NCBI GenBank assembly: GCA_021234155.1
Contig: JAJEKV010000003.1
Location: 22,473,569 to 22,537,568 of the forward strand
Source: Isoetes taiwanensis
Taxonomy: Eukaryota; Streptophyta; Lycopodiopsida; Isoetales; Isoetaceae
Length of the DNA: 64,000 nt
Direction: 5' to 3'
Position numbers and translations under genes: made by a program. Under the pieces are notes generated by a model, which saw only the letters and a program-made list of their open reading frames with translations, had not been told where the DNA came from and made no database searches. Every line of letters begins with the position of its first letter. The stretch's first letter is position 1. Of the stretch, positions 15,004 to 60,850 are shown in pieces.

Positions 15004-15490
15004 TAGTCAAAACTTAACCTTGCTTATTTGGCATGCCATATCACCACTTAGAGTGCCACATCATCTTTTCCATACTATTTGTTGGTGCTACAAGGGTAAC
15101 GACAGGCACTGTCAAATCCTGGCCACTTGTGGCAAGGGGAGCAGTCCATAATATGAACACTACAGTTTTTCCATTGAGATGGAGACAAACACGCCCAAGA
15201 GTTTGCATATGGTCATTATCATGTCCACATCACCCATATCTTACCACGTCATCAAAACTTTCCCACATCACCTTATGGAAAACTAAAGTTGCACATTTTT
15301 GGATTTTTTGGGCTAGTCAAAAGTTGGCCTTGCTTATTTGGCATGACATGTCAAATGGCATGCCACATCATCATGTGCATGTCAACTGTGACTTCTCAGC
15401 CTAGTCAAAATTTGATATTGCTTAGAGAGATAAGTTTGGTCAAAATTTGGTATTGCTTAGAGAGCTAAGTTTGGTAAGTGTACGCCTAAC
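15004..15490. repeat. Dispersed and tandem short repeats
   Basis: A block with TTGCTTATTTGGCATG occurs near 15020 and 15328. A roughly 36-bp unit containing GTCAAAATTTG and ATTGCTTAGAGAG is tandemly doubled at about 15400-15475. Confidence 0.65.
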
Positions 15491-31271: not shown

Positions 31272-32185
31272 GTTGACTTTTAGAGCAAAAAAGGTATGTA
31301 CAAGACTAATAGCAAGAGGCCACATTGATGAAAACAACTAGCATATTGAGACTAAGAAAAGTTACACATAAAAATAGTAATGCAGTCTATATGATTGCAA
31401 ATTGCAATGGAAAACAGTAAAATCTCTTAAGTTTAGCTTGAAGAGAGTTTTTTACATCTATATATGACACTAAATGGTCTAAGAGGAAGAATGACTTGTA
31501 TTGAGGAAGCTCTCCATTAAAGACGTGGATAAGTGTTTTGAGTTTCCTCTAAAGCCAAAGTCATGGACTTGCAAGCAGAAGTGAAGTTGGTCGATCCACC
31601 AATTGTTACTTCTCACTAATAATTTAGTAAAACCATTCAAGGCATCCCTCGTATTGCACATATCCACACATGCACACATCAATTCTTGTAATACATAAAC
31701 AATTTTGTCATTGAATTAATTAAGTCTTCTTCCCATAAACAAGACTGCATATTCAAATGATCAACTTATGTGAACACACTAACGTGTCTATTGTAATTAA
31801 GCATATCTCTATTTGCATTTTCTTCTCTGACTTTCAATTGAATACAACCCAAGTTGCTTACGTTTAAGCCCAAGCTATTTCTAAAGTACACAAGTTGTGA
31901 TGTTTCAAAGTGCAATAAAGCATAAGAACGAAGAACTTGAGAAAGTACCCAACATGTGATGCTTGCGATGTGCAAAATGCAAGCAAGCACTTTACAAAAT
32001 TGACTACATACTTATTATTGCATTTTGGGTGCATGTAATAATCTCGATATGAAAGCCCAGTACGAGAAACCCAAATCGAAAACCAATTTTTTGGGTTGCC
32101 CCTAGGGGGGCAAACCCTTGTTTATGTGGGTTTATGGCATATCCTAGGTATATGCTAGAATATACCTAGGATATGCTGATGACTG
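31272..32185. other. No gene recognised between helicase and next fragment
   Basis: No Rep/HUH nuclease motif (two His with a Tyr) could be found in frames upstream of the helicase. A palindrome containing CCTAGGTATA lies near 32140-32175 (ATATCCTAGGTATATGCTAG). Confidence 0.4.
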
Positions 32186-40653: not shown

Positions 40654-43600
40654 CTAGTCATCTGGTTCATCCACATCCTCGGCCACAATGTCTGCTTCAT
40701 CAACATTTCCAGGAATATCTTCAAAGGCATGTTCTTTGACAATTATCTCCTCATTGTTTGCGTGTTTGTATGAAAGACGATTGTCTTTGACATCTTCATA
40801 CATGTCTCGGTCTTGCTCTAGGCCATAATAATGTCTACCACGAATGGCAGATGCCTCCATGAGTGAACCAATACCAGGCATTAGATCTAACACCAATGAA
40901 TTTGCGGGGGAAAAGCTGGATACAATGAACTCCATGAAACAGACTGATTTTTCAAGATTACACCTGTCATTTTTTTTCTTCGATACAAATAACTTCTGTT
41001 CATCTGGCAGGTAATGCACAAGTGTCGATGCATGCTGATTAAGGTCTGCACTGCTGAAGACATTCTTAGTGATCCGTGGTATTTTCAGCCCTGCCCTGGA
41101 ATACACTGTTAAGCGGAGGTGGTTATTGTTAATTGTACCAAGTTCATCTGTAGTGACACCGAAGGGTGTGGAACTGTATATATGGTACAGTCTCCTTTTC
41201 TGCAAATTTCTTTTCTTTGCATTGTAATCGATACGAGGTAGCTGATCATCCGTGCATATGACTATGAAGAAGCCATTGTCATCCATACATAGGTTGGCAA
41301 TGGCAGTGATGTTTTCAATGAAAACGGGGTTGCAGGAATTCCACTATGGAATTGTGGAATGACCACTTGTTGGTAATTGATTTGTAGGAAGATCATAAAA
41401 AACAATGTGGCAGCCCCAATCCCTGTACCATTCCTTTTGTAAGCATGTTCAGCTAATCTATTCTGTTTTCCAAATTCTCGAAGTACCTTAAAAATTGATG
41501 TCTCAGAATCTGATGTGAAACTTGATGTTAAAGCAGATGCACTTGCCCATACATAACCTATAGAGCAATCACTATAGTTTACAGAATCATGCTCAGTAGG
41601 ATTTCCGTATCCTGCTACTATAGAGACCTTACTAAATCTGTTGACGTTTACATCTAGGGTATCGTTATTATCTTCCAAATTCTCGACATTCTCTTCATCT
41701 GGAATGAGAATTTCACGTCTATTTTTTTGTTTTTTTTTTTAACTTCTCCTTGCGTTTTCTTTTTGGATTTTCCGTCTCTGGACTTGACACATCTTTAGAA
41801 TTTGATGGCTTGTTTGAGTCTATATCTGTTTGAGAACATATTGCCCATCTATCCTTCTCTTCCTTTGGATACTCACTTTCTGAAAAATCTAACGACCAGG
41901 GACACTCTTCAATTTCAAATTCTACTAACCTTGTATTGAATCTCATGTTGAGATTAGCTGAGTAGATCCATCCTTGATCATCAGTTTGCTTCCATGGCAA
42001 GACAGCACTTGGTAGTTTGTCCACGTATTTCCTCTGAATAGCATGCTTGATGTACCTGGAATTGCCAATAAATAATAACTGTTAGTGAAGCAATAAGTAT
42101 ACAATGAACACAATGAAGACCGTTCTTTTTGCACAATTAAGAAGATCATGAGCATTATCGTAATCAACAGTGTGGGACATGTGCTTTTCATTGTTCACGG
42201 ATATTTTTTTCCTGTACTCCATTTTCATGTAACGGAACCAGGTATGAACAGTTTCTGTGGTGTTCTCTAAATGAACAAATTCAGGTTCATCCTCTTGTAT
42301 GGCAGTTAGAAGTTCCTTGCTTTTTTTTAGTAAATGCTCCAACCAAGTTTCTTTTTTGATCCATTCATGGAAATCCCTGTCATTACCTGGCATTCTGTAG
42401 CTATTCAACAGGTTTGACTCAGTTGTGATTAGCAATATCCAAATGTTTCTAACATCATTGTCTACTGTTGCCTTGGCCATATCATACAACTTCTCTAGTG
42501 TCAGCTTAAAATCTTTTGTGCTCACATCTTTGGAGGTTACTGCTTTAAGCCATGTGGGTCCCAAGCTAGGGCAAACAATTGCCAAGTACTTATGCAGCTT
42601 ATTTGTCCATCTTCTTCTAACTTCCTTCTCGGATTTTTCTCGTGCTTTTAATTCTGGCATTTTCTGTGTGTGGACCTTCAGCAACAGTTCAATGTCATTT
42701 TCAATATTAGCCTGCACATAGTTGCTGTCAGTTCCCACAACAATCAATAAATTATTTCAGTATCAGATTTAACTTACTTTGTATAAGATTTGTGCTAGCA
42801 TGAATCTAGTCAGAGGGTACCAAGGTTCCTCTCCTAGGACTTTCACTTCTTTTGCTCTAGCTTTTGCTATTTCTTCTTCTGTCACTTCCTTGGTAAACAT
42901 TCTCAAGTCCCTGGTTGCCACCTTGTGCACTGCATACAAAATATCCTTAAGTGTCTCTCATACAACTCCTTTTTCGTTAAGTCTACATGGAAAAAGCATT
43001 CATTTAGTACAAGTAATGGGAAATGAATGATGACTAGTTCCAATTCTTAACTTACTCATTAATTCTTCTCATTGCGGTTACGAGTTCAGCCTCTCTTTTT
43101 CTATCGACCTCCACAAAGGTTGCCTGAGGCATATGTGTATCTCCTATGCATTGGTACGATGGTTCCCGTCTCAGCACAACTGATAGATCAGACCAATGCG
43201 GATTATTGGAAAGTTCCTGCTCAAAGTTTTCGTTCTCCACTTGCCAATTGTCATCCCAAGAACTGATCAATTCCTTGGTAACATGAGTCTCTTTACCCTT
43301 AGGTCCCTTTATAGACAATATGAATTGTCCCTTTTGCATAATATAACCATCTCTTCGTAGAGTATCACGCAGCTGTTGGCAGTTTGGTGTAACCATTCTC
43401 ACAGCCTCATATATTTGTATTCTGCACAATGGAATAAGGGGTAGAGGAGATTCCCTGTTAATCTCCAGCACCTTTAATGTCTGTGATACTTGATTAACAA
43501 TGAATGAAGCCGGTAGCTCATCATTGTCTCCTTCACATTGTTGTGTGGCCTCAACACTCTCCCCTCCCTGTTGTTGCATGACATCAATGGTTTTACCTTT

Positions 43601-43927
43601 ACCTTCATCCGAGTTTACCACATTATCATCTTCCTGAATTTCACAATTATGGGGAGTAGCCACATGAAGATGAGGTTCAGTAGCATCTACGTCATCATAG
43701 TTAGTACTATGGGAGGCCATGTCTGTGCCAACTTCAGTAGCCTCTGAAGTCATCTTTCTGTCAGTAACAATAGAATCAGACTGGGCGATAATCAGAGATT
43801 GAGAATTGTCTCCAGAGTTTGTTGTTGTTGTCTTTTGTTTTCGAGGCTTTCTTGGTGGAGTTCTCATGCGCTCAAAGACGGGACCTTTGTAATCAAGATT
43901 CTTGCGGGTGAAATACATAACCTTCAA
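40654..43927 (-). CDS. Multi-exon gene ending in a DNA-methyltransferase-like domain
   Basis: Minus-strand open blocks joined by plausible introns: 43927-43052 (acceptor TTGCTGCAG; first Met 43918; donor GA|GTAAGTT), about 42950-42780 (donor AAG|TAAG region), 42735-42110, 42024-41719, 41706-41430, and 41330-40654. The first exon has a basic linker (PPRKPRKQK) and, near its end, a region that might be a degenerate ParB-like fold (weak). The fifth ends in a Lys-rich tract whose T-run may hide an indel. The last exon carries GFFIVICTDDQL, then KSVCFMEFIVSSFSP and the motif-I-like LVLDLMPGIGS (residues 131-141 from 41286), RGRHYYGLEQD, and an acidic tail (PGNVDEADIVAEDVDEPDD). Motif X then motif I fits a beta-class DNA N4/N6 methyltransferase C-terminus. 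No DPPY-like motif is visible, so activity is doubtful. It is divergent from the transposase gene at 45207. Confidence 0.55.
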
Positions 43928-43993
43928 CTGCAGCAACATTAAGTCATCAGGAAAAAAAAAAAACATCAGGAATGCAGAAAAATACTCAGTCAA

Positions 43994-44870
43994 AACCAGA
44001 ATTTAAACTGCAAAATGTTGAACGGCACCATTCAAGATAATGTCGACCATAAAACTCATCAATGAAAACTTCAACGGGACCATTCAAGAATATGTCGATA
44101 CATTGGATCTGATAATTCGAACACAAAACTATAGAATGAAAACTCGAACAATACCGTTCAGGAATTTGTGGATAGATTGAATAGGCTAATTCGAACACAA
44201 GACTCTACAATGAAAACTCAAACGGTACCGTTCAGGAATTTGTGGATAGATCGAATAGGCTAATTCAAACACAAGACTCTGTAATGAAAACTCGAACGGT
44301 ACCGTTCACGAAATTGTGGACAGATTGAATAGGTTAATTCGAACACAATACTATGCAATGAAAACTCGAACGGTACCGTTCAAGAATTTGTGGACAGATT
44401 GAATAGGCTAATTCGAACACAATACTATGCAATGAAAACTCGAACGGTACCGTTCAAGAATTTGTGGACAGATTGAATAGGCTAATTCGAACACAATACT
44501 ATGCAATGAAAACTCGAACGGTACCGTTCAAGAAATTATGAACACATTGAATAGGCTAATTAGAACAGGAAACTCTGCAGCGAACAGAAATTTGGAGCGG
44601 CACCGTTCAAGAAATTGTGGACAGATTGAATAAGCTAATTAGCGCAGGAAACTCTGCATTCAAATTTGGAACGGCACCGTTCAAGAAATTGTGGACGGAT
44701 TGAATAGGCTTATTCGAACATAAATCTGTATCGTGAAAACTCGAATGGCACCGTTCGAGAAAGTGTGAATCGTTTGAATAGGCTTTCGCGAAGATAAAAC
44801 TGTATCATGTAAACTTGAACGGCACCGTTGAAGAAATGAATGAACATGAGAAAACTTGCGAATGAAAATG
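43994..44870. repeat. 74-bp tandem array, about 11 units, each with a GGTACC palindrome
   Basis: Units start at about 44076, 44150, 44224, 44298, 44372, 44446 and 44520, exactly 74 bp apart, with more diverged units on both sides. Most contain the 14-bp palindrome GAACGGTACCGTTC, then TTTGTGGACAGATTGAATAG and TAATTCGAACAC. The outer units have GGCACCGTTC variants. The array lies in the 5' part of the minus-strand gene, between its putative first exon (44959-44908) and second exon, and about 0.4-1.2 kb from the divergent transposase start. A clustered protein-binding array is possible. Confidence 0.92.
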
Positions 44871-44907
44871 TTCGCATTGCAGTAGAAAGAAAAAAAGTGA
44901 TACCAAC

Positions 44908-44959
44908 CTGTGTTCTTGCTCTCTGGCCTTGGTGACGGATCAATCGAAGAGCACATCAT
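44908..44959 (-). CDS. Possible first exon of the methyltransferase-like gene
   Basis: ATG at 44959 followed by 17 codons (MMCSSIDPSPRPESKNT) ends at ACACAG|GTTGGT, a good donor. The reading phase does not fit the exon starting at 43927, so it may instead be 5' untranslated sequence or a short separate frame. Confidence 0.3.
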
Positions 44960-45206
44960 CCGCTTCGGGTATAAGATTTACTGTTCAACCGATTCAAACG
45001 TTTTAATGAAAATACCCACTTATTATAATTAGGTGAGAACACTAAAATGCATTATTGCTTGGTTAGTGGGATTGAAATTCGCTAGCCGTTGGCTATGTAA
45101 CTGACAGTAGTGCACCCTTGAATTACGCAAACATAATTTGTAATTAACCGTTGGAACTGTCATATTAAAATGAGTTTAAAGGGGAGTACAAATTTTACTT
45201 TGCCAT
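44960..45206. promoter_or_regulatory. Divergent intergenic region between transposase and methyltransferase-like genes
   Basis: Only 247 bp separate the first ATG of the plus-strand transposase gene from the putative minus-strand first exon. It is AT-rich without a TATA box I would trust. If both genes are real it must hold both promoters, possibly with the 74-bp array next to it. Confidence 0.35.
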
Positions 45207-45955
45207 ATGGCGTCTTATCTTACAGCGAAAGCTTCAGGTGTACAACAAATACTGTTGCTTCCTTTCCAAAACGGAGTATGTGAGGTTAGTACAGCAGATT
45301 TGTCTAGAACTTTCAATGTACTACCTAGCAATTTATATATGATTCAAAGTTCGACAGATGTGGAATCCAATGTAGCTAGCACTGTGGTTGTTGAATCTGT
45401 TAGTGCTTCTGGACTAGGAATTTTTAAGGTTGAGGAAAGAAATGGCACGGTTGTGGAGGTACATGGTATTCCTGCTGAAGGCAAATCTCCTCTATGTCCA
45501 GTTGTCCTTGATTCACCCACTACTACAAAAATAGGTAGAAATGGCACAAAAGTGACCTTTATGCTCCGCCTTTTTACAGAGCATAAACGTCACTTTTGTG
45601 CCATTTATGACATTTGTGCTCCCCAAATGGCACAAAAGTGACGTTTATGCTTCGTAAAAGGGCGGAGCATAAAGGTCACTTTTGTGCCATTTCTACCTAT
45701 TTTTGTAGTAGTGACCCCATTCTTCTAATGGAGCAACTACATCCCAATGCACCTCTACATACTTAAAGATAATATCATGTCCCATTAACAACAAACTTAA
45801 AAAATTGTTAATGAAAATTGGAAAACCAAGACAGGTGGATTGTTTGCCACAATATTATAATGGAAAAATTGTTTTTGAGTTGCCAGGTCAGTCCATCAGT
45901 AAAACCCCGATGGAAGATATGCAACATTCGGTTGATCCACACGTATGGATGCATG
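45207..45955 (+). pseudogene. Mutator-like transposase gene, N-terminal part, broken by two insertions
   Basis: The frame starts at ATG 45207 (MASYLTAKASGVQQILLL) and runs open to 45517, where the 196-bp CACTA-type element begins. It resumes at 45714, reads through SSNGATTSQC, KPRQVDCLPQYYNGK and ELPGQSISKTPMED, and reaches DPHVWMHA at 45955, where the 9-kb element begins. Removing each insertion with one target-site copy keeps a single frame that continues at 54961 into the zinc-finger part. No domain is recognised in this N-terminal section itself. The assignment to the transposase gene rests on the exact frame continuity across both insertions. Confidence 0.72.
45518..45713. mobile_element. 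CACTA-type miniature element (MITE), 196 bp, TSD ACC
   Basis: Ends are CACTACTACAAAAATAGG and its reverse complement. A 3-bp target duplication ACC lies at 45515-45517 and 45714-45716. The superfamily is known for CACTA termini and 3-bp duplications. The arms pair over about 90 bp. Each arm is also self-complementary, because GGCACAAAAGTGAC and its complement alternate four times, so the element can fold as one long hairpin or as two smaller ones. It has no coding capacity. Confidence 0.92.
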
Positions 45956-46009
45956 CACATCAAAAATGATGCCCATATCCTCCTTAAAATCCTCCAAAAA
46001 AAACCCCTT

Positions 46010-46435
46010 AAAATCCCCATTTTCGTGGAATGGACATGATTTTCAGAAACGGGGTATTTGGCCACAATCCCCCCGTTGTGATTTTGTTGATTAATATCCC
46101 CTTATTTGAATTTTTTTTATATCCCCCATTGCCATATGCAATGGTCATATCCCTTTTCTCACAAATAATGTTCATACCCCTTTCTAGAAACAATCCCCCT
46201 TTGCGATTTTGTAGTTTAATATACCCTTATTCCGTTCATACCCCTCTTCTCAACCATCCTCCTTTTATGTTTAATATCCCCTTATGTTTAATATCCTCTT
46301 ATGTTTAATATCCCTTATTCCGTTCATACTCCTTTTATGTTTATACTCCTTTACCATTCATACTCCTTTTATGTTTAATATCCCCTTATTCCGTTCATAC
46401 CCCTCTTCTCAACCATCCTCCTTTAAGCCTTAAAT
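46010..46435. repeat. Left subterminal C-rich repeats of the TIR element
   Basis: Imperfect repeats of TTTAATATCCCCTTATTCCG and TTCATACCCCTCTTCTCAAC fill about 400 bp next to the left terminus. Subterminal repeats bind transposase in several DNA transposons. Confidence 0.75.
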
Positions 46436-47164
46436 TGAGAGATATGATGCATTTTTGCAAGTAAAAAGTATAATCATACACTCAACTTTTTCAACAACAA
46501 TATAATTTCAAACGCATCTTTTCAAATTGGACATTCATATGTTTGTAGAAGAGAATTCCACACATTGTGTTCATTATATCTTGGATAAATTCTCAAACTG
46601 CTTAGATACATTTTATATGCAGATAGACTACAAGCTTGATTAAAACAAACTCCCATTCTTTACTTGCTCTGTAACCACCATCTCTAGTCATGTCGTTTGG
46701 CTTCACATGCATGTTTCTCTATAGTTTCTGCAAGACAAAAATATAACACAAACATAAAACATCAATGTTTATCATATATAACAAAATTAATTGCATCTGT
46801 GCTGTTTTTTTGCAAAAAAGGACTGCCCTGAATTGTACATAAATAGTAGCTGTTCACTTATAGCAATTCATGTCTGTGATTTCGTCCCTAGTAGACAAGG
46901 ATAAAATTGTCTCATTCCTTATTCTTTCATTCTAACCTTTTTAGAAGAAGCAGCATTCCATTGTACTCAACCTTTGAGCCATGACCGCTTCTGCAAATGC
47001 ATCCACAAGAGAGGAAGGAGACGTTGCAATCAATCATGAGATAGTATCGAGTTTGAGTAACTTGATGGAAGAGGTCATACATTGAAGTATTCATAATAAG
47101 GAAGGGCGAAAAAACCTAAACGACAGCCTGTTTCCCTTGTATGGGGTGAATGATTAAGCTTAAC

Positions 47165-47411
47165 TGAAAATAAGAGAGCTTGATATTGAAAAGCAATAGC
47201 AGAAATAACAAGGCATAAAGAAATAAGGGCCATCCCAGAACCAAGGAAGCGGCAAAGCGGCAACCAAGATATCCTGAGGTGTCCTCTTATCCTGAAGGCA
47301 TGCCAAATTTGGCTGCTGAACTTTAGGGCTCTGGAACACTAATAGGCAGATAACATCACAGACTATTTTTGTTACGTCTGTTTGTTATAACCTTTACAGC
47401 ATGTTCCAACA
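47165..47411 (-). repeat. Copia 3' LTR
   Basis: 247 bp, identical to 51853-52099; on the element strand it starts TGTTGGAACATG and ends CTTATTTTCA. Confidence 0.97.
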
Positions 47412-47426
47412 CTCCCCCTCAAATCA
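47412..47426 (-). other. Polypurine tract of the copia element
   Basis: TTTGAGGGGGAG on the element strand directly precedes the 3' LTR; it primes plus-strand DNA synthesis during reverse transcription. Confidence 0.9.
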
Positions 47427-47567
47427 GACTTAACAAAACAAATCTAACAACTATCAATGACAGAACATGAAACTGCTCCCCCTCAAATGAAAGTGCAGTA
47501 TGTTTAACTTTACAACAAGAAAACTGAAACTGAACTGCTCCTCTTCATGAAATTACTTCTTGCATGG

Positions 47568-50500
47568 TTATGCGGTGGTCATGCCTAGTTCTGCAATGCA
47601 CCTGCAGAAAGGTTTTTGTCCCAAAGGCTTAGTAAACATATCAGCGGTCATTTTATCTGTCCTGAGATATTCCACAACAATCTTTCCTTCCGCTATCTTT
47701 TCCCTTGTGAAATGGTGCTGAACCTGTATGTGCTTAGCCTTGGAAAAGTTAGTAGGATTCTTTGCAAGTGACAGAGCTGCTTTATTGTCATTGAATATGA
47801 CTGTGGCTTGTGTTTGAGTGGTATTAAGCTCCTTAAGAATCCTTCGAAGCCATATAGCTTCCTTAGTTGCTGATGCTAGTGCAATATATTCTGATTCACA
47901 GCTGGACACGGCGGTTGACTTTTGCTTTTTGCTGGACCATGACACTGCTCCCCCTTGCAGCACAAAGCAAAATCCACTTCGAGATTTTCTGTCTGTATGA
48001 TCCCCTGCATGATCAGCATCAGCATACCCTTCAAGTATAAGTGAACTCCCTGCATGAAATGTGATCCCAAGACTCTGTGTGCCTTGGAGGTATCGAAGCA
48101 AGCGTTTCAACCCTTGCCAATGCTGTGGCTGGGGTTTTTCCAAATGTTGACTTAAGCTTATCACTGCTTGTGAAATATCAGGCCTTGTACAAACCATGAA
48201 GTGCATCAATGAGCCCACTATGCTTCTGTACCCAATGGCTTGCATTTCAGAATTTATGCCTTTTAAAGAGTTTACACATTGAATGGTAGCAGGGGTTGTA
48301 ACAGACTTACTTGAGTCCATGTTACATTTGTAGAGTAGGGACTGTATAGCTTTGTTTTGATGCAACGTGATGCTACAAGTGGCTGGATCCCTGCATACCT
48401 GTATTCCAAGAAAGTACCTTAGTGTCCCAAGGTCTGTCATGTGAAAGCGTTGGTTGAGGGCAGCTTGGGTGTCCTGCATCAATGTCTTACAGTTGCTGGC
48501 CAGGATCAGATCATCCACGTAAAGAACTATAAGCAACATTTTGGATCCATCAAACTTAAAGTATATGTTCCAGTCTGCTTGACTGCGAGAAAAGCCCATT
48601 TGAGTAAAGAATTGATGAATCGTGTGGTACCACTGTCGTGATGATTGCCTGAGTCCATAAATGGCCCTTTTAAGCTTGTACACTAACTGTTCTTGTCCCT
48701 TTTGAACAAACCCTGCTGCTTGCTTCATGTAGACTTCTTCCTTAAGTTTGCCATTGAGGAAGGCAGTCTTGACGTCCATTTGTTGTAAGTCTAGGCCATG
48801 GGCTACAGCTAAGGCGATGACCAATCTAACAGAGGTGAGGCGTGCAACCGGAGCAAAAGTTTCGTGAAAGTCTATGCCTGGTACTTGTGAGTATCCTTTG
48901 GCTACCAAGCGTGCCTTGAATCTATCAATGTTCCCTTGTTCATCATATTTTACCTTGTAAACCCATTTGCAAGCAACAGCCTTTCTATTAGCAGGAAGAT
49001 GGCACAAGTCCCAAGTATCATTGTCCAATAAGGACTGATATTCTTCAGTCATGGCATTGTGCCATTCTTTATGATGCATGCTGGCCATTGCCTCTCGAAA
49101 GTGGACAGGCTCATCTACTGGTGCATTACTATGAAAAGCAATGTAAGAGGCAGTTTTACCTGATCGGGATTCGATATAAGCTTGCATTCGATCTGTGATC
49201 TGCCTGCTCCTTGTGGACCTCCTTAATGGCACAGCAGAGAGCTCCTCATTGTCTTCAAGGTCAGTCTCCTCTGGTTCAGAAGGGATATCTTCCATGTCAT
49301 TAGCATCAGCTTCTTCTAGTGGGACACCATGCTTTTGGTCTGCATCTTCTTTAGCTTCATCATCTGCATTTGCCTCATACCATTCAAGCTTGCTTGATTT
49401 CTCCTTCTTTCCAAAGAAGAACGTGTGTTCATCAAACTCAACACTTCGTCTCACTATGATTTTCTTCGTGAGTGGAACATACAAGCGATATCCTTTTGTG
49501 TGATCATCATAGCCGACAAACATGCATTCTACTGCCCTCATGGAGAGTTTACCTCGAGGGCGTTCTTGCTGGCTCAAGTGTGCATACGCCCTGCAGCCGA
49601 AGATCTTCAATTCATGCACATCCGGTTTGTGGCCTGACCACATTTCTTCGGGAACCACATTTGGGTTGGCTTTAGTGGGTATGCGATTGAGCAGGTAGCA
49701 TGCCGTGTGTACCGCTTCAGCCCAAAAGATTGGATCAATTCCTCTTCCATGGATCATTGCACGAGCACATTCCAATATGGTGCGGTTTTTTCTCTCAACC
49801 ACACCGTTTTGTTGATGTTCATAGGCCACTGACTTTTGGTGGTGGATTCCAGCATCTTGTAGAAAGGTGCTGAACTTGGTATTGAGAAATTCCCTGCCCT
49901 GATCAGTTCTGATGGTTTTGACCACCTGTTCGATTTGCTTTTCCACCTCCCTCTTCCATTTGATGAAAGTATTGAAAGCCTCTGATTTGTGTTTAAGGAA
50001 GAACACCCAGTTCTTCCTACTAAAGTCATCGATCACCAGCATGAAGTATTTGGATCCTCCAAGTGATTTTACACTGGCTGGTCCCCACAAATCGATGTGC
50101 AACAGTTCCAACTGTTTGGTTGCCCTTTTTGTTTTCTCCTTCTTATAGGGTTTCCGTTTGAGCTTACCCAATACACACCCTTCACAAATGACATGAGGCT
50201 TGGAAATCTTTGGTAGACCAGTGACTAATTCCTGCGCCTTCATCTGTTTGATGAGAGGATAGTTAGCATGCCCTAATCGTTCATGCCATGTCTTGGCCTT
50301 TTGCAGTTCTACTGCTGTCAGTGCTGTGCTAGAGTTGGCAGTCCAACTAAGCTGGTATATGTTGCCGGCCCTTGTCCCTGTGGCAATGATTTCCTTCCTG
50401 TCCTTCACAATGCATCTGCCATTGCCAAAATTGATATGAAATCCCGCATCATCCATTTTTGATATGGAAAGCAAGTTCGCCTCAAGGTCAGGCACGTGAA

Positions 50501-51785
50501 GGACATTCTTTAGGTGCAACGACCCCTGTGGCAAACTGAGCTTTACACTCCCAACTCCTGCAATGTTCAGTTTTCCCTTGCCTATTCTCACTTTTCTCCC
50601 TGTCTTATTGGGCTGGTAATCCAGAAACAACTCCTTTTGTCGGGTCATGTGGTCGCTTGCACCTGAGTCTAGATACCAGACTCCCTGAATTATGTCACTT
50701 GCAATAAGACATGAGGCTGTGGCACTTGTGCATCTCCACATAATATACATTACTATGGCTTGCAGCACACTAAACAAATATGGAAATATGAACGTGAATT
50801 TGCCAAGTCTGCTAGCTGTAGATTCTGTTGTTGCAAAAAATGCCCTTCCAGCCGAAACAATTGAATCATCATCTGATGATTCTGAATTCTCTTCTTCTGA
50901 GGAGCTGCTTTTGCTTGCTTTATGTGCCCTCGGATCTTCCTTTTTCTTCTTGGATAGTCCCCTTTCTTTCTCCTGGCTGCGTTCTTTTCCTTTGTCTCGT
51001 GAAGCTTTAGGTTCAGACTTCCTCTTTCTCCTATCTGGCTCAGGACAATTCCTTCCTATATGCCCAACTTTGTTGCAATTAAAGCATTTTCTTGAATCCT
51101 CACGATTCCCCATAAATGCCTGGTTTTCCTTGTGTCCAGGTTTCTTGTTGCCTCCCTGATTTCTTTCTTCAAGAATGAGTTGTTGACATGCCCACTCTAA
51201 TTCAACCTTTTCAGCTGAGCCAATAATGTTCTTCACATTATTGTAGGTTGGAGGAAGACCTAGCAGCAATGCTCCTACAATAACATCTTCATCAAGAGTT
51301 TTCTTCATGCCCTGTAACTGCTTGGCTGCTTGGCGTATGATACCCATGTACTCTTCCATGGAGTCACAATCCTTGAGCTTGGTGGTGAACACTACACTAT
51401 ACAGATTTGCTTGGACAGAAAAATGCCCTTTAATGTATGATTTCTTGAGTTGTTCCCATGCTTCTCTTGCAGATGCAGCTTCTGCAACCTGTGGCATAAG
51501 AGTATCATCAAGATACTTGAGGATTCTACTCTTAGCTGTCCAGTCTTTCTGCAACCACTTGGCTAAAGCTTGCCTTTCAGCTTCTGTCTTTACAGAATCT
51601 TCAGCTGCAGCTTCTCCCTTAACCACTTGCGCTGTCGTTGGCACCGTGGTTGTGCCTTTTGCACGCATATGAGGTCTGGGCTCATCTCCTGATACAATCC
51701 CCCATAATCCCTTTTCACAGAGCTTCGTCTGCACCTTGAGAAACCAGTGATAGGAATTGGTGTGGTTTAGTGGCTCAATCCTCAT
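47568..51785 (-). CDS. Ty1/copia gag-pol polyprotein
   Basis: 1,405 codons from ATG 51785, chosen because upstream in-frame ATGs lie in the LTR and the frame after 51785 starts with the usual gag opening (EPLNHTNSYHW). Domains in order, numbered from that Met: gag; zinc knuckle CFNCNKVGHIGRNC (234-247); Lys/Ser-rich linker; protease WYLDSGASDH (370-379); pre-integrase HHCC (about 499-541); integrase with D565, D628 and E664; reverse transcriptase ending with YVDD (1089-1092); RNase H with YADADHAG and SSCESEY. No stop or frameshift is seen, so it looks competent. An odd feature is a hydrophobic stretch of about 40 residues (FTFIFPYLFSVLQAIVMYIM) just before the protease, possibly an intron or an inserted segment. 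Copia elements move through virus-like particles in the cytoplasm. Confidence 0.96.
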   Translation of the reverse strand: MRIEPLNHTNSYHWFLKVQTKLCEKGLWGIVSGDEPRPHMRAKGTTTVPTTAQVVKGEAAAEDSVKTEAERQALAKWLQKDWTAKSRILKYLDDTLMPQVAEAASAREAWEQLKKSYIKGHFSVQANLYSVVFTTKLKDCDSMEEYMGIIRQAAKQLQGMKKTLDEDVIVGALLLGLPPTYNNVKNIIGSAEKVELEWACQQLILEERNQGGNKKPGHKENQAFMGNREDSRKCFNCNKVGHIGRNCPEPDRRKRKSEPKASRDKGKERSQEKERGLSKKKKEDPRAHKASKSSSSEEENSESSDDDSIVSAGRAFFATTESTASRLGKFTFIFPYLFSVLQAIVMYIMWRCTSATASCLIASDIIQGVWYLDSGASDHMTRQKELFLDYQPNKTGRKVRIGKGKLNIAGVGSVKLSLPQGSLHLKNVLHVPDLEANLLSISKMDDAGFHINFGNGRCIVKDRKEIIATGTRAGNIYQLSWTANSSTALTAVELQKAKTWHERLGHANYPLIKQMKAQELVTGLPKISKPHVICEGCVLGKLKRKPYKKEKTKRATKQLELLHIDLWGPASVKSLGGSKYFMLVIDDFSRKNWVFFLKHKSEAFNTFIKWKREVEKQIEQVVKTIRTDQGREFLNTKFSTFLQDAGIHHQKSVAYEHQQNGVVERKNRTILECARAMIHGRGIDPIFWAEAVHTACYLLNRIPTKANPNVVPEEMWSGHKPDVHELKIFGCRAYAHLSQQERPRGKLSMRAVECMFVGYDDHTKGYRLYVPLTKKIIVRRSVEFDEHTFFFGKKEKSSKLEWYEANADDEAKEDADQKHGVPLEEADANDMEDIPSEPEETDLEDNEELSAVPLRRSTRSRQITDRMQAYIESRSGKTASYIAFHSNAPVDEPVHFREAMASMHHKEWHNAMTEEYQSLLDNDTWDLCHLPANRKAVACKWVYKVKYDEQGNIDRFKARLVAKGYSQVPGIDFHETFAPVARLTSVRLVIALAVAHGLDLQQMDVKTAFLNGKLKEEVYMKQAAGFVQKGQEQLVYKLKRAIYGLRQSSRQWYHTIHQFFTQMGFSRSQADWNIYFKFDGSKMLLIVLYVDDLILASNCKTLMQDTQAALNQRFHMTDLGTLRYFLGIQVCRDPATCSITLHQNKAIQSLLYKCNMDSSKSVTTPATIQCVNSLKGINSEMQAIGYRSIVGSLMHFMVCTRPDISQAVISLSQHLEKPQPQHWQGLKRLLRYLQGTQSLGITFHAGSSLILEGYADADHAGDHTDRKSRSGFCFVLQGGAVSWSSKKQKSTAVSSCESEYIALASATKEAIWLRRILKELNTTQTQATVIFNDNKAALSLAKNPTNFSKAKHIQVQHHFTREKIAEGKIVVEYLRTDKMTADMFTKPLGQKPFCRCIAELGMTTA

Positions 51786-51840
51786 GATTAGAGCACAGCT
51801 TAGCCTGCCTTTCAACTTCCTCGGGCCCCGGATCGTGGCC

Positions 51841-51852
51841 GCTCTGATACCA
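51841..51852 (-). other. Primer-binding site, initiator Met tRNA
   Basis: TGGTATCAGAGC directly follows the 5' LTR on the element strand. It is the classic plant copia site, complementary to the 3' end of initiator methionine tRNA. Confidence 0.95.
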
Positions 51853-52099
51853 TGAAAATAAGAGAGCTTGATATTGAAAAGCAATAGCAGAAATAACAAG
51901 GCATAAAGAAATAAGGGCCATCCCAGAACCAAGGAAGCGGCAAAGCGGCAACCAAGATATCCTGAGGTGTCCTCTTATCCTGAAGGCATGCCAAATTTGG
52001 CTGCTGAACTTTAGGGCTCTGGAACACTAATAGGCAGATAACATCACAGACTATTTTTGTTACGTCTGTTTGTTATAACCTTTACAGCATGTTCCAACA
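51853..52099 (-). repeat. Copia 5' LTR
   Basis: 247 bp, identical to the 3' LTR by eye. The gag-pol frame happens to remain open into this LTR. Confidence 0.97.
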
Positions 52100-52104
52100 T
52101 TAAC

Positions 52105-52874
52105 TATGGTCAGTTATGGAGATGTTCTGCAAGGAGGAGAAGAAACCACAGACGCATCTACGGCAAAACTCAAAAAGCCACTTGTTAAGTCATATGTCCA
52201 TAGCTAGTGCATTTGGGGCTCGTTCAGGTTTTTATAAAAAACTGGATATAAGATAAGTTAATGAAATGCCGTGGACTTGTGTCCGTGATCGAACCTGAAT
52301 AGGCAAAAAATTTGGCACTAAAACAAATAGTTCTTCTTGCTTTTACGCACTGCTATATTGCATGAAAAAGGAGAGGGACAAGCTACAGGTGCCAAGTAAA
52401 AAAGCACAGAAAGGCCCTCCAAAAAAAGAGAACTGGGTACAAAATTACAGGGAACGGAAAGAAGCTGATTTGGTCTGTGTTCATAAAATGGAGATTTTGG
52501 ATGGATCTAAAAGGCCTGATTCAAAACCAAATGATAATATCTAAAAGAGATGGACTACAGGTAACTTATCTCTCCCATTCACAGAATAGCAACAAAAAAA
52601 GAAAAGTCTTCCCATATTTTCAACGCCTCAACAGACAGGCCTCAAGACAATTCACTAAACAGAAATGTGATTTACATATCTGCAGATCGATTCAAGGTCA
52701 TATACTTCGATGTAAATGTGGCATCTCTCAGAGTCCCAATGAATCTGCAATGTGATCTGTGTAAGAAAAGAAATCGACTAGATGAAGGCCAAGAAGATGA
52801 CATTCAAAAATATACAAATCAAGAAGATGAAGGCCAAGAAGATGACATTCAAGAAGATGACAAATCGGGAGCAG
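52105..52874. other. Interior of the TIR element, no recognised gene
   Basis: A Lys-rich plus-strand frame (52362-52544) and a short tandem motif containing AAGAAGATGACATTCAA (about 52780-52860) are visible. Short hairpins of the type CACGGACTTGAGTCCGTG recur near 52272, 53526 and 53642. Confidence 0.35.
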
Positions 52875-52940
52875 AGCCTTTGTGCCTTCAGAAACAACGT
52901 GCTTAGCAAGCTCACCAGGAAAGATAAACCTTACAGCATT
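52875..52940 (-). pseudogene. Histone H2B C-terminal fragment
   Basis: Within a minus-strand frame (53174-52728) the residues NAVRFIFPGELAKHVVSEGT match the C-terminal helix region of plant histone H2B (AVR, PGELAKH, VSEGTKA are hallmark) at about 17 of 22 positions. Resemblance starts and stops abruptly; neither the histone fold upstream nor the TKFTS end is present. It is probably a captured exon piece in the TIR element, not a working histone. Confidence 0.75.
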
Positions 52941-53179
52941 TTTTGCAATGGCCGCATGCTTCTCCGCGGCCCTGGGTTCCTTGGCAGCTTCCGCTCTGAA
53001 TCTGCGGCAGATTTGTGCGCCACAGGGAAGCTTGAATCTCGGCGGCAACAAGAAAAAAAATGGTCGCAAAAAAGCTCGGAAAACGGAGAAGGCAACACCA
53101 GATTCGTGCAAAAGAACATTTTTCCAGCGGAAAAAAGGTAGGTCTCTTTTTTGTTTGTCTTTCTTCTCTAACAAAATAA

Positions 53180-54235
53180 AACATTAACTACAACATTCGA
53201 TTATCCCAATGTTTATAGATCCCATGTGTGGAGCCAAGGTGATGCACTAACGTTTTCTTGGACCTCATTCAACCATGCCCTTTATTTCTATTTAGGTAGC
53301 CAAAATGATGCTCAATGTTTTGTTTTAATGGGTCAACTTCTAGGATTCTTAGACAAGACGAGACAGCACAAATTTTATGGTTCTATAACTATAATTTGTA
53401 GTGTTTGATTCCATCACTATAATGGGGTGTCTCTTATTAAATCCCCCCACCCCCATGAAACTAAAATGAAAGCTAGTCTTATGATGGGCTTCATATAGAC
53501 GGCAAATGATGGGCTACATATAATTCACGGGCTTGAGTCCGTGAATTAAGCTTTGCATACGATCATGCCCACCCCACATAAACAGGGGAACGCCATAGCA
53601 ATTTGTAATTAAGCGACATGCCATCTAAGATTTAGGTAAAGTTCACGGACTTGAGTCCGTGGTCTGGTAGTGGGAATGCCAATTAAGCTTTGAGTTGATT
53701 CATGGGTTTGAGTTTTTCATTTTAGCTAGTTCACCCTTCATGGAATGAAACTCTAGCTTGAGGTTATGTCTAGACCTATGGTTCATATACTTGAGTCTAC
53801 ATAAGTATAGACATAAGTTACCAACCTCATGTGAATTGCTCAAGCAACTTGCTTATCTTGGTTAATGCTTATATATTATATGATTCTCATAGGGATGTGC
53901 TAGTGTTGGAGAGCTGAAGAGTTACTACAAGGCAAACTACTTCTATCGAGGTAACAAAGATCCATTTACAAAGGCATGGATCCTTTCCTTAGATATAATA
54001 TAGCCTTTGGAAAGACCAGGTTTATTAACTATTTAGTTCAAAAGTTCATCCATGTGCCATACGATGATACAAAGATTCTAGGGTATGAGCTAATTCAATC
54101 ACTTACGGACCAACATGTAATCTTTTGACTGGTATAATAAGTATTAATAAGATTATAGCAAAGGTTTAAATGTTATTATTTACATTAATGGTGTTCAGCA
54201 ACACCCACTTTCTAAAGCAAGAATCACTGAAATAT
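53180..54235. other. Interior of the TIR element, AT-rich
   Basis: No gene recognised. It contains two of the CACGGACTTGAGTCCGTG-type hairpins (53526-53544 and 53642-53660). Confidence 0.45.
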
Positions 54236-54239
54236 CAAC

Positions 54240-54905
54240 TTAAATATAATCCTCATCCTCCTTTTCCTTCATTCCCTTTTTATGTGAATCCCCATTTCTC
54301 CTCGTCCCCCCATTCTAAATTGCAATTCCCCCATTAGGCCCTCATTACCCTTACTAATCGTATCCCCCATTCTAAATTGCAATTCCCCATTGTAAATTGC
54401 AATCCTCCATTGCTCCCTCATTACCCCTACTAACCCTGACTACCCCATTTCTCCTCATCCCCCATTCTTCATTTTTTTAGTAGAAATCCCCATATTCTAA
54501 ATTGCAATCCTCCTATTACTCATTCATTACCCCCAGTAGCCCTGACTACCCCATTTCTCTGCATCCCCCATTTTTCATCTCTTACAGAAAATCCCCATGT
54601 TCTAAAATTGCAATCCCCATTACTCCCTTACCCCTACTAACCCTAACTACCCCGTTTCTCCTCATCCCCTATTCTTTATTTTTGTTTTAAGGAATCCCCA
54701 TGTTCTAAATTGCAATCCCCTTATTATTCCATCATTATCCCTAGTACCCCTGACTACCCCATTTCTCCTCATCCTCCATTCTTCATTTTTTTATAGAAAA
54801 TCCCCGTGTTGTAAATTGCAATCCCCCTATTACTCCCTCAACACCCCTAACATAGAACTAAAATCCTCTTCTTCTCAAAAAATTATCCTTTGCTCGTCAA
54901 TCCCC
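54240..54905. repeat. Right subterminal C-rich repeats, about 105-bp units
   Basis: Units containing CTGACTACCCCATTTCTC (54436, 54542, 54643, 54750) and TCTAAATTGCAATCC recur every 101-107 bp. They are C-rich on the same strand as the left subterminal repeats, so the two arrays are not inverted copies. Confidence 0.85.
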
Positions 54906-54957
54906 CATTTCCAGAAGGGGGTATTTTAAGGAGGATGTGGGCATCATTTTTGATGTG

Positions 54958-57580
54958 ATGCCAACAGGACTGACATACCTAGTTTTGATGGGACAGTCAG
55001 GTTGTCATATTGTGGTGGTCACTTGCAATGTAAAAACATGTCTTGTGATCATTTATTGACTAAAGGCAACCACAATGAGTTGCACTGGAGAGGTGCATTG
55101 CAGAGAAGACCTGAGATTGGTGAACTAACTTCATTCCATGGATCTATAAGTTGTGAATACTGTCATCTGCCACCTACTTGTGTGGCACGTTGTTTAGTAT
55201 CCACGTACTATTGTTTGCCTAACAGAATCTCTGAAACAAGACTAGCTGTCCATACTGGTGAGCACACACATCCCATTAAAAAGGCAGAATGCAGAAGTCA
55301 AGTCAAGCGAATGAGGGACCTAGTTAACTCATACACAACCTTACATCTTGGTGGGCCTAGACATAAACAGAATGAATTAGCTATGGATGAAATTGTTCGT
55401 TCAATTATGGGCTCCTCAGATGGAGACAGTGTTGAGAAGATGGATACAGATCAAATAAACGAGTTGTTGACAAGGTTGGAACCATTATGCAATCAGAGAA
55501 GGTATGACATTGATATTACGTAATAAATTACATTAACAAGTTATTTGATAAGGAGAATATTGCTTGTGTAGGTTGAAGAGATGGATTGATGATGCGAGAA
55601 GAAGAAATAGGCAATGTTCAGATGATATTTCTGGTTTATTGGAGTTAAAGAAAAGAAGCAAATATGAATATTTCCATGGATCTAAATTCCCTTACCAGCT
55701 TCATGATCCGCTAAATGAACGCTGTTACATTTTTAAAATGTCTACAACTGGTCCTGGATCAGGGGTTGATTTGGTCAACAGGATGAGACCAACAGGTGAT
55801 CTTAGCAACAGTTGGGTGCATTTTGATCACGTCAAACGAATTCAAGGGTGGACAACCTTAGCTTGTCATGTGTATGATCACAAGTAAGCGGTTTGCGAAA
55901 ATCAAATGAAAAAAGTTCATTGATAAGTTTTTAACAATCTTGTTTTACGTGCAGAATTAAAGCCTTGTTGACAATTGCGATTTGTGACATGAAGACAGAG
56001 GATGCAGAGGTACAGAAAAAGTTTTGGAGGAAGTTTAATAAGGTCATGGTAGCAAAAGGTTATTCAAAAGCTGAGTTTTTTGCGTTCATGGCAGACGAAG
56101 CTCAACCTAATTGGATTGCAGTCAGGGAAGTTTTCTTCAATGGGGAAACTAGACCCGAAAAAGAGCATTCCTATTACTTCCATTTCGAGCAATGCATGAT
56201 CGATATACAGAAAGACACTTGCCAAAGGAATATTGGGACGCCCATAAGGATCTGTGTAGAAAATGGCATCAATCAGCAACTGAGGAGGAAGCAGATAAAA
56301 TATACCACTCCATAATGGATTGGTGGGTGGGCAAGACTACAGATAATCATATTAAAGTTTTGAGTTTTTGGCCATCATGGTGGCATCATAGGATAAGCAG
56401 ATGGGGTAGGTTTATGGTCAACAAACAGAATTGGCAGACAGCAATACATATTCCACAAACAAACTTATCAGAGACAAAGCACAGGAGTTGGTTTTCAGAA
56501 AACAAGAATAATTTTTCCTTGTATGATGCCTCCCTCTTTGATCTCACAGAAGCTGTACTTCAGAGTACCAAGTACAAATCATTTCTAGACTGCAACTATT
56601 TAGGACTGGTCCAGGTGTATCAGATCTTTTTAGTAGACTGCAAAATCGTCAAAGCAGTGGTGCCAAGGCTAAGGAGGTAACCAACATCATAAAGTTGGAA
56701 GCAGAAATGGCAGGCTTTGAAGAGCATGACAGCGGTGCAGGAGGTAACTTGAAGACTGTATACAAGAAGCAACGTTCCATAGACACAGTTGATCTCACAG
56801 CAGAATCAGGAACTCATCGTCCCGACAAACATGCAACTAATGTTAGCAGAGTACGTAAGGATGATCCTGTGGTGAGGACTCTTTTCAATGATTCTTTAGA
56901 AGAGAAGACTGTGCACAGGTCTCTTTGGGCTATTCGAAGAACAGAAGCAAGTAGTAAGGTCAGGTGTCAAGGGAGGAAGTCAGAACATGGAAAAAAATGT
57001 AATAATCCAATTAACGTGGGTATACAACCAACAGTTGCTTCTTGCTTTTATGGGTTAAGAGAATTCCGGGGACAACGAGTGTCATAAATGATGTGGTTCT
57101 GTCCTACTACAGTTGAATGCACATGGTTTCCAGATAAGTCTTTGGTGTGTCCCCCACAAAGACCACCATTGTGGCCTGTGGATAAAGATACTGACTTGAC
57201 GAATGAAGAGATTGAGAAACTCAGAGCAGCGAGGTTTTTGTTGGGTGGTAGATCTCAATCTAGCTTGACTGCAGCCAATGCAGCCTCGAGTATGCAAGCA
57301 CGTAGATCCACCATGGCAGGGTCTGCTAGCTCTGTAAGGAGCAGAACTAAAATGACAAGGAAGGGGAAGGTTGTGAATTATAGGAAGGAAATGAATGGAG
57401 AGACGAAGGTCAGATTTGAGCATCAAAGAGAATGAAGGTGGATTTTGTGCAAGAGAAGACCTACTCAAAAAATAAACATGTGGACTATGTAGTCAAACGT
57501 GAAGATAGCACATACATTGTATCCATTAAGGATGAGCCAGAATGCAGTTGTCCGGATTTCATCCACATGGAAAGGTGTTG
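54958..57580 (+). pseudogene. Mutator-like transposase gene: zinc finger, DDE region and SWIM-type finger
   Basis: Continues the frame broken at 45955. Exon to 55501 has a Cys patch (SYCGGHLQCKNMSCDH), then CEYCHLPPTC, ARC and TRLAVHTGEHTHPI, a C..C..H.H arrangement ending in GEHTHP as in WRKY-GCM1 fingers. Canonical introns follow at 55502-55571 and 55884-55954; both keep phase. The DDE-like region reads WVHFDHVKRIQGWTTLACHVYD, then LLTIAICDMKTED and FMADEAQPNW. Frameshifts occur near 56195 and 56610, perhaps also near 57080 and 57430. The block 57432-57580 has ECSCPDFIHMERC followed by a stop, a SWIM finger lacking its final Cys-x-His. This order is typical of Mutator-like transposases. The present copy is inactive. 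Confidence 0.75.
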
Positions 57581-59235
57581 ATCCAAGATTTGCATCTTGA
57601 TCAACACCCAGATATAAATACTTGTGGTCTGGACCTCCAGAGTTGTTTGATGGCACAACTCAGCCTTTCAAAAGACAACTCAACCGTAAACGAACAATTC
57701 AAGCTCCTTGCACAGCTTGTTTGCAAGGAGATCAGTTTGATGCGGATGAAGGAAAATAATAATAAAATAGATGAAAATGCTCAATAAGTTTTGAGCTAGA
57801 TTTAGGCTTTAAAAGGATTGAAGAAACAAACAACCGATCTTTTATATTCCATACAAAAATAATGGGATTATCAAAGCACTGGATCAACAATAATTTTTAT
57901 AGACCAAGGCAACTGAATTTCAAAAAAGGATGGATAATAACAAAGTATTTATTCTCCGACAAAGCTACAATGCAAGACCTCTTGCAGAATGGCCCGTGAG
58001 TTTTTCTTTCTCATCAACCTGCTTTATGCGTTTTCAAGCACCGTAAACGAAACCGAAACCGACCTCATCTTACGCCGTTCAATCTTGCCCCTTGTTTGGA
58101 TATACCTAAATTTGGACATCTCATTCTAGGCTTTCCCCAAATAAATAGCATTTTTTCTTGGCACGGAACATGGCTAAATGCATTTGTCTCTACGCTTTCT
58201 CAAACATCTTCATTTCGCGAGCGTAGTTGCATGGACAAGTTCTTGTAGGTCTTGGGGAGAGAAATGGAGAAAGAAATATGAATAGAACTAGAAAAAATTT
58301 GTGCAATAGTGGAAACCGAATTTGCCAACAATGGGTCCAATTGAAGAAAAATGTGAGGCAACGCACAATTGAAAAAACAGAGGATGTTGGCCACGAAAGT
58401 AGGCCAACAAAAGGATAAGAGGATTCATACCTTGCAAGCACTTGTTGTACGTATACAATCAAGTGCTTAGAATCGATCCAGTATCCGACCCTGCAGTGAT
58501 CCAGCCAATGCTAACTGAAGCTTTGTTAGAGCGTATACTCCCGAAGTAGTTGTCAGTAGTAGATAAGTATATGCATTGTTATTCTTTATTCACTTTGGTT
58601 TACAGTTCGAGAACAGTTGTGACGTAAGTTGGCTGAGTTTATAAGTGTCATGTTATGATGTCTTATTAATGAAAAGTAGTGACCATGTGAATCAATTTAA
58701 CAATTGCAAAGACGTCTGTCATTTTCTCTGCAGCATTTTTTTTACTTAAAACATTCTGGTTGTTTCATGTACAATTCTGGTACAGCAAATAACCAATCAT
58801 AAAATTGCATACTCCCATACAATTCAAATCCATTCATAAAATTTATACAATTGCCTACATTCATCCAATTTTAATCCATTCACACAATTACCTGCACTAG
58901 CTGCCCTTGTCATATACACAAATCCTATAAGCGCCAAAACATGTACAGTAAAAAAATAAGTTAGGTATTAAAATGGAAGTAGAAGCAAAAACTTTTTTAC
59001 ATTCAAAATATTTTCGTGGCCGTTTGGCCTTACATCATAACATCCTTTTGGAAATTTCAATGCCCGGAGGCTTCAACTATTCACAATAAAAAAGCCCGAA
59101 GGCTTGCAGTCATATGGTAAAAAAAAAGCCCGTAGGCATGTACATTCCGGAGGCAAGTTGGTATGAAGCTGGAGGCTAAGCAAGAAAAAAAAAAAAAAAA
59201 AAAACGTGCTCTGCCCTAACAAATTTCATTCATTT
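57581..59235. other. 3' flank of the transposase gene, no recognised gene
   Basis: A short frame (57542-57787) may be a last remnant of the gene. Further on is AT-rich sequence, three AAAGCCCGNAGGC-type phrases (about 59058-59140) and a 20-base A-run near 59186. I looked for an inverted match to the 40.3-40.65 kb region that would mark element ends and saw none. Confidence 0.4.
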
Positions 59236-59955: not shown

Positions 59956-60850
59956 TTGGGATTTAATAAAAAAACACTCCAAACCCTCCTCGAGAAAAAC
60001 CACGTAAGTGCCGACCTCAATTCAGACATTGTGCTTTTACAGGAGCCCCGACTTCAAGATTTTGAGGCAAGATCTATTAGCAATTGGGTAGGTAACAATT
60101 TATCCTCATTTACCTCTGCAGCCAGGGGTACCAAAGGAGGTACCCCTCCTGGGACATCCCCAGTAATGACAAGGATTCTTCAGGCCTGGAAGGAAGTACA
60201 ACACATATTTATCCCTATGAATCCTCCTAGATGAGTTGGAGGATTTAGTATTTTCTGGAACACAAAGATTTGGGAAAGGGGAGGGCTTCCCTTAGCACTC
60301 TCCCATCTTCGCATCTTGATTAAGTGGAAGAATGCAGGTATCATACGGTTACAACACCTGTGGTTAAATGGCAGATGGACTAGTTGGACGAAGCACAAGC
60401 AGAGAATTCCCTCCGCCGAGGAAGGTGACAGGATAATGTTATGGAGATCCTGGAGAATGTCACTTATGTGTCAGGAGTTGTTGGGCCGCAAGAAAGGTGG
60501 CTACTCAATGGATATCAACATTATAGTGTGTCAAAGATATGTTAATCTCTAGGTCAAGACGTTCCTTAAAAGCGGAGATAAGACTAGGAATGAGTAACGT
60601 CGTGGCTAAAGCAGTTTTAGCCAATTCTTGGAAATCCATATGTTCCAAGAAATTTCAATTCTTCAGATGGCTGGCCCTTGAAGGGGGGCTAAGTACAAAT
60701 GGGAGTTTATATAACAAGGGTATAACAGATGTAGACAGATGTTCACATGGATGTTCGATTGGATGCCCAATGGATCATGTTCTTTTGCCCCATGATCATG
60801 GAGTACTGGCATTGGGTTAGCCCCATCATTCGTTTGTCTGTCCTCGAATT
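59956..60850 (+). pseudogene. LINE (non-LTR retrotransposon) with internal deletion
   Basis: The first block (59956-60234) has SDIVLLQEPRLQDFEARSIS, like the N-terminal endonuclease of plant L1-type elements. The last block (60539-60820) has FFRWLALEGGLSTNGSLYNK followed by GITDVDRC, HGC and a DH pair, like the zf-RVT finger after the reverse transcriptase. The reverse transcriptase itself is missing; under 500 bp separates regions normally more than 2 kb apart. Stops and shifts are frequent. A related scrap lies at 26630-26720. Confidence 0.6.

Follow-up and report, generated by a model that had tools for sequence, protein, structure and literature searches.

A nested 9-kb insertion in one member of a transposase gene family of Isoetes taiwanensis

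A 64,000-nucleotide stretch of the Isoetes taiwanensis genome (hereafter the window; contig JAJEKV010000003.1, C1034:22473569-22537568 in our genome-wide searches) contains a transposase gene whose first exon is interrupted by 9,002 bp of other DNA. Here, we show that this 9-kb segment is a real insertion, flanked by a 3-bp target duplication, that entered a single copy of a transposase gene present many times in the genome, and that it holds a copia retrotransposon that is younger than the CAC-ended element that it splits. Very probably, a non-autonomous CACTA-like transposon of 4,062 bp inserted into exon 1 of a SWIM-finger transposase gene, duplicating the trinucleotide ATG, and the later arrival of the copia element brought the insert to its present 9,002 bp.

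The 9-kb insertion and the copia element within it

The insert and its parts lie in the window as follows.

45956..54957: composite insert, 9,002 bp, made up of a CAC...GTG element of 4,062 bp, a nested copia element of 4,935 bp and the 5-bp duplication of the latter
45953-45955 and 54958..54960: left and right copies of the ATG target duplication of the 9-kb insert
45956..45990, plus strand: left terminal inverted repeat, 35 bp
54923..54957, minus strand: right terminal inverted repeat, 35 bp
46214..46433: left subterminal repeats, with units of 17, 34 and 70 bp
54305..54849: right subterminal repeats, with units of ~106 bp
47165..52099, minus strand: Ty1/copia long terminal repeat (LTR) retrotransposon, 4,935 bp, recognized by its LTRs, target duplication, primer site and Pfam domains
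47160..47164 and 52100-52104: left and right copies of the TTAAC target duplication of the copia element

Over their outer 35 bp, the insert ends are complementary at 34/35 positions. Four inverted pairs of at least 25 bp occur in 44000-58500, three of which are the arms of one small palindrome while the fourth is formed by the insert termini. When the flanks are joined without the insert and with one ATG, they read TGG ATG CAT GCC AAC AGG, with no stop at the junction. The insert, its inverted termini and the ATG duplication had been proposed in an earlier sequence-only reading of the window, and all three are confirmed here by the pairing of the ends and by insert-free paralogs.

We searched the whole genome (1,658,258,908 bases in 1110 contigs) with a 120-bp query across the right junction, composed of 48 element bases and 72 host bases, for which we scored 40 of 426 first-look candidates. 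One match, the window itself, spans element and host; 26 are host-only and 13 are element-only. Nearly all host-only matches (24/26) begin exactly where the ATG does (query base 49), with one beginning at base 50 and one at base 59. In each of the six paralogs that we fetched (L029-L034) there is a single ATG with nothing inserted, and these loci are 92.5-97.5% identical to the joined flanks; after the ATG, 5/6 read CCAAC like the window, and L032 reads CAAAC. Two host copies, C945 and C1094, had been suspected of sharing the insert because their protein match begins near the junction, and were rejected because their junction matches end at the ATG like the others. A nested insertion is textbook-ordinary, but this one is unusually well supported by the 26 insert-free sister copies among the scored matches.

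The nested copia retrotransposon, which the sequence-only reading overlooked, accounts for over half of the insert. Its LTRs are 247 bp each with TG...CA ends, and there is no difference between them; the tRNA-iMet primer site reads TGGTATCAGAGC. The polyprotein is encoded by a single open frame within 47571-51974 with Pfam matches to gag, integrase and reverse-transcriptase domains, integrase preceding reverse transcriptase; a separate protease domain was not among the Pfam matches listed for 47165-52099. Without the copia element and its duplication, the length of the CAC-ended element is 4,062 bp. The sole interior open reading frame (ORF) of this element that we scanned, 52731-53183, gave no Pfam match, and an Rfam scan of the window at gathering thresholds gave none either.

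A family of CACAT-ended elements

The ends of the insert are those of a dispersed family, whose members are bounded by CACATCAAAAATGATGCCC ends, with termini that read CACAT. An exact 19-nt terminus has 129 matches in the genome, versus 0 for a reversed control. Of 39 other copies listed we fetched 21, and 11 of these, spanning 3.8-12.6 kb, have both ends inside the fetched DNA; in the remaining 10/21 the right end was not seen within the ~9.4 kb fetched. Exact 3-bp duplications flank 10/11 of the two-ended copies (TTA, ACA, ACC, ATA, ATA, TCT, TTA, GTA, TGT, TAC), and the chance of finding them in at least 10/11 copies is 3e-17; the two copies flanked by TGT and TAC had been chosen since both of their ends matched in the terminus search. 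Other copies of the element carry the same ends; differing ends, which the sequence-only reading would have taken as a refutation, did not appear.

The family is conserved at its edges and variable within. The left 230 bp at least of the window element is common to 20/20 copies compared, and ~470 bp to most of them; the last 0.5-1 kb is common to 8/9 copies with a right end, L021 being without such a match. Two copies, L011 and L023, share the interior of the window copy at 92-94% identity, and the interiors of the others differ, some of them including foreign pieces such as a P450 piece in L010. The 9-kb element has inverted ends beginning with CAC, and carries CACAT in place of the name-giving CACTA motif. 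CACTG is an alternative terminus motif within the CACTA superfamily. Like the non-autonomous members of CACTA (EnSpm), the family combines CAC...GTG ends and a 3-bp duplication with subterminal repeat zones of several hundred base pairs and variable interiors that contain gene pieces. What emerges is a clean anatomy for a CACAT-ended family, together with the order of one nesting step.

Ten ORFs from family copies gave no Pfam match to Transposase_21, a domain that is common elsewhere in this genome (2311 first-look candidates). Seen by eye, an ORF at L025:4003-4449 resembles a distantly related transposase; Pfam has no match for it at 0.1, and the Transposase_21 profile described below misses it. 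In a 12.5-kb member of the CACAT-ended family (L009, also L046; C1045:947482-960013) we noted a nested open frame whose product looks, by eye, like a SWIM-finger transposase of Mutator type.

The interrupted gene and the alternative readings

The host gene and the other insertions in it are arranged as follows.

45207..45517, plus strand: exon 1, first piece, from the start codon to a miniature inverted-repeat transposable element (MITE); 44711-45516 is 96.5% identical to paralog L035
45515..45517 and 45714-45716: left and right copies of the ACC target duplication of the MITE
45518..45713: CACTA-type MITE, 196 bp, terminus CACTACTACAAAAATAGG, arms complementary at 86/89 positions, absent from 3/3 aligned paralogs (c1018, c1025, c1048)
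45714..45955, plus strand: exon 1, second piece, through the left ATG copy
54961..55501, plus strand: exon 1, remainder
55572..55884, plus strand: exon 2, with 71% identity to the corresponding frame in L036
55953..58540, plus strand: last exon, in several frames relative to L036, split by the insert at 57576-58409, with the SWIM region at its end
57576..58409: solo-LTR-like insert, 834 bp, TG...CA ends, AAAGG on both sides, absent from c1018 and c1025 (c1048 is uninformative)

The gene comprises three exons, and has an apparently intact relative, L036, at ~50% identity. Aligned with paralog L035, the window copy shows three inserts rather than one: the 9-kb segment, the 196-bp MITE and the 834-bp TG...CA segment. 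The MITE, which lies 240 bp upstream of the 9-kb insertion point, resembles CACTA MITEs in its CACTACTACAAAAA terminus, its 3-bp duplication and its near-palindromic form, with no notable difference; the 834-bp segment looks like a solo LTR, given its TG...CA ends and 5-bp duplication. Several frame changes relative to L036 are also present in the last exon. Since c1025 and c1018 have frame changes of their own at other places, those of the window look private and late.

The claim that removal of the insert restores the frame thus holds locally and fails for the gene as a whole. If the 9-kb insert alone is taken out, an open frame runs across the junction from 45715, where stops at the end of the MITE close it, up to the intron that starts at 55,502. 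Bringing the start codon (45207) into this frame requires that the MITE and one ACC be removed as well, and the solo-LTR-like insert and the last-exon frame changes break the frame further on. The stronger assertion that the insertion provably entered a then-intact frame has to be withdrawn for the whole gene, because there are two further inserts as well as last-exon frame changes whose relative order is unreadable. For exon 1, a locally intact frame at the time of insertion is likely.

Among the protein matches listed, twelve cross the junction over at least 205/207 residues at 89-96% identity. The ratio of nonsynonymous to synonymous substitution rates (dN/dS) over the junction exon is below 1 in 21/21 pairs of seven sequences (0.22-0.89 over 204-213 codons, stop or gap codons dropped), and amounts to 0.22-0.32 in the six pairs that include L034, the most distant copy, so that within the transposase family this was a coding frame under selection. 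Of the six paralogs, two carry a single stop in this stretch, and the joined window copy (45800-45955 + 54961-55460) has none.

Three alternatives can be set against the history that we favor. It is extremely improbable that the transposase gene contains the 9 kb as an intron or as a long-established, fixed component: the flanking frame is indeed open on both sides of it, but the segment ends in CAC...GTG and not GT...AG, has inverted ends, a target duplication and exact terminus matches across the genome, and is absent from the 26 other host copies scored and from all six fetched paralogs, whose flanks join directly. Transposase copies carrying the same 9 kb as an ordinary intron, which the sequence-only reading had considered, were found among none of those scored or fetched. 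We consider it unlikely that the element should be placed in a different superfamily that also makes 3-bp duplications, such as PIF/Harbinger, although the absence of any Transposase_21 found with the family termini and their CACAT start would both suit such a placement. Harbinger duplications are expected to be of TWA type, and TTA accounts for only 2/11 matched duplications, the others being the ATG of the window and the remaining eight given above; moreover, the combination of CAC...GTG ends with extended subterminal repeat zones agrees with how PMC8978399 describes CACTA elements. Far harder to set aside, at only somewhat less than an even chance, is the possibility that the gene was already dead when the element arrived, with the MITE, the frame changes or the solo LTR coming first, so that the insertion would tell us nothing about how a working transposase was lost. 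The same copy bears three further kinds of damage, in unreadable order, which speak for this possibility, while the stop-free junction stretch of the joined window copy and the private, late look of the last-exon frame changes speak against it.

Insertion of a non-autonomous CACTA-like transposon, with copia following, remains the account that we prefer, and several observations weigh against it. The empty sites are all paralogous and none is allelic. One two-ended family copy, L022, is without a 3-bp match and has TAGA on each side, as if 4 bp had been duplicated. Unlike those of CACTA (EnSpm), the termini read CACAT, and when ten of this genome's Transposase_21 stretches were made into a profile, it gave no match better than E 0.23 in the DNA fetched for the 21 copies or in the window core; this search covered ORFs of at least 25 aa, 10/21 copies were incomplete and no autonomous member was identified. 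Because no Transposase_21 was found in the fetched copies, our name for the element is CACTA-like, and we stop short of assigning it to CACTA itself. Finally, 8/12 of the long paralog protein matches have stops in the junction stretch (4/12 have none), so most sister copies are also broken.

We propose that the CAC-ended 4,062-bp element entered exon 1 of one SWIM-transposase copy by cut-and-paste, with a transposase supplied in trans, probably of the CACTA kind, making a 3-bp staggered cut that would have given rise to the ATG duplication. The copia element inserted later to give 9,002 bp, and the interrupted gene may then have decayed neutrally. The MITE and the solo-LTR-like insert in the SWIM region are separate events at this locus; among the MITE, the 9-kb element, the solo-LTR-like insert and the frame changes no order can be read, and the one order that is shown is that of copia after the element.

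The host transposon and its methylase-like partner gene

The interrupted transposase gene is itself part of a transposon, of which two further features can be placed in the window.

40657..44002, minus strand: fragments of the host transposon's divergent second gene, the last of which (40657-41343) matches N6_N4_Mtase
60000..60018, plus strand: right edge of the interrupted transposon, where similarity to c1018 and c1025 ends in both

The repeated host unit extends in the window from at least 40851 to ~60018, with the same right edge in three copies. Mutator elements have a target duplication of 9-11 bp and a long terminal inverted repeat. A left edge and a target duplication of the host transposon were sought and not found; the duplication is not seen because only the right edge has been located. 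Like Mutator-like element (MULE) transposases, the interrupted gene has a SWIM finger near its C end, which by Pfam scores 23.3 bits in L035, over the cut-off of 19.6, and below it in the window piece (14.4) and L036 (16.1). Unlike those transposases, it has no listed match to the Pfam MULE domain, either in the window (E up to 1) or in L035 and L036 (E up to 10). The label "Mutator-like" given to this gene from sequence alone can therefore be no more than tentative, although by eye its acidic-residue spacing and a CxFHFxQ-like stretch resemble those of such transposases. Between the two divergent genes, 74-bp tandem repeats occupy 43969-44885 of the window and are also present in c1018 and c1048.

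Copies of the second gene accompany the repeated transposase: the match to c1048 starts at 40851 and covers most of the methylase-like part, and that to c1018 starts only at 41695. A homologue with longer open frames, L041:6461-9665 (minus strand), occupies the same place and orientation beside L036. In both, the last part matches N6_N4_Mtase (PF01555), with 29.3 bits for the window and 36.8 for L041 against a cut-off of 26.7. The place of motif IV reads DLPT in the window and DFPT in L041, with a stop close to it in the window copy, which makes methylase activity doubtful in the window family. The predicted structure of the window ORF is uninformative (mean predicted local distance difference test score, pLDDT, 31).

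Genes of this kind are frequent in the genome. In a PF01555 search, 150/150 scored matches, the best 150 of 1442 first-look candidates, lie over the cut-off. Of the two that we read, L060 has ADLPYG and AFSGSGTT with two stops in frame, and L059 has AFSGSGTT; we take these motifs to be close to those of working N4/N6 methylases. L059 lies 1.6 kb from a Transposase_21 match on the same strand. Among the best 150, three lie within 10 kb of one of 150 listed Transposase_21 places, versus 0.27 expected, and none within 10 kb of one of 147 listed SWIM-transposase places (a few second pieces belonging to one and the same locus were dropped from this list), again versus 0.27 expected. Since none is near a listed SWIM-transposase place, the top-scoring methylases mostly reside in elements other than the window's host.

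Transposon-borne N4/N6 methylases have a precedent in brown, green and red algae (PMC12477816). Sola1-1_Ec32 of Ectocarpus, as described there, is like the window's host a DNA transposon with an N4/N6-methylase-like gene on the strand opposite the transposase; unlike it, Sola1-1_Ec32 has another transposase and is not from a land plant, while the window family has DLPT or DFPT at motif IV and no ParB-like domain listed. No land-plant precedent appeared in the literature searched, in which subscription journals are poorly covered. We hold it to be an evenly balanced proposition that the host is a two-gene lycophyte transposon, consisting of a SWIM-finger transposase and a divergent N6/N4-methylase-like gene, and that several kinds of transposon, this host and CACTA elements among them, have spread hundreds of such methylase genes through this plant genome, perhaps as a means of marking or protecting the DNA of the elements themselves. 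The methylase-like partner gene may matter more than the nesting event. With PF01555 over the cut-off at every scored place in a land-plant genome, and some of these places beside transposases, N4-methylcytosine (4mC) and N6-methyladenine (6mA) marks on plant transposons would become directly testable.

Elsewhere in the window, a 467-aa open frame at 29879-31279 (minus strand) has a PIF1 helicase domain, and at 13155-15042 a 19-bp unit forms long arrays that occur in both orientations.

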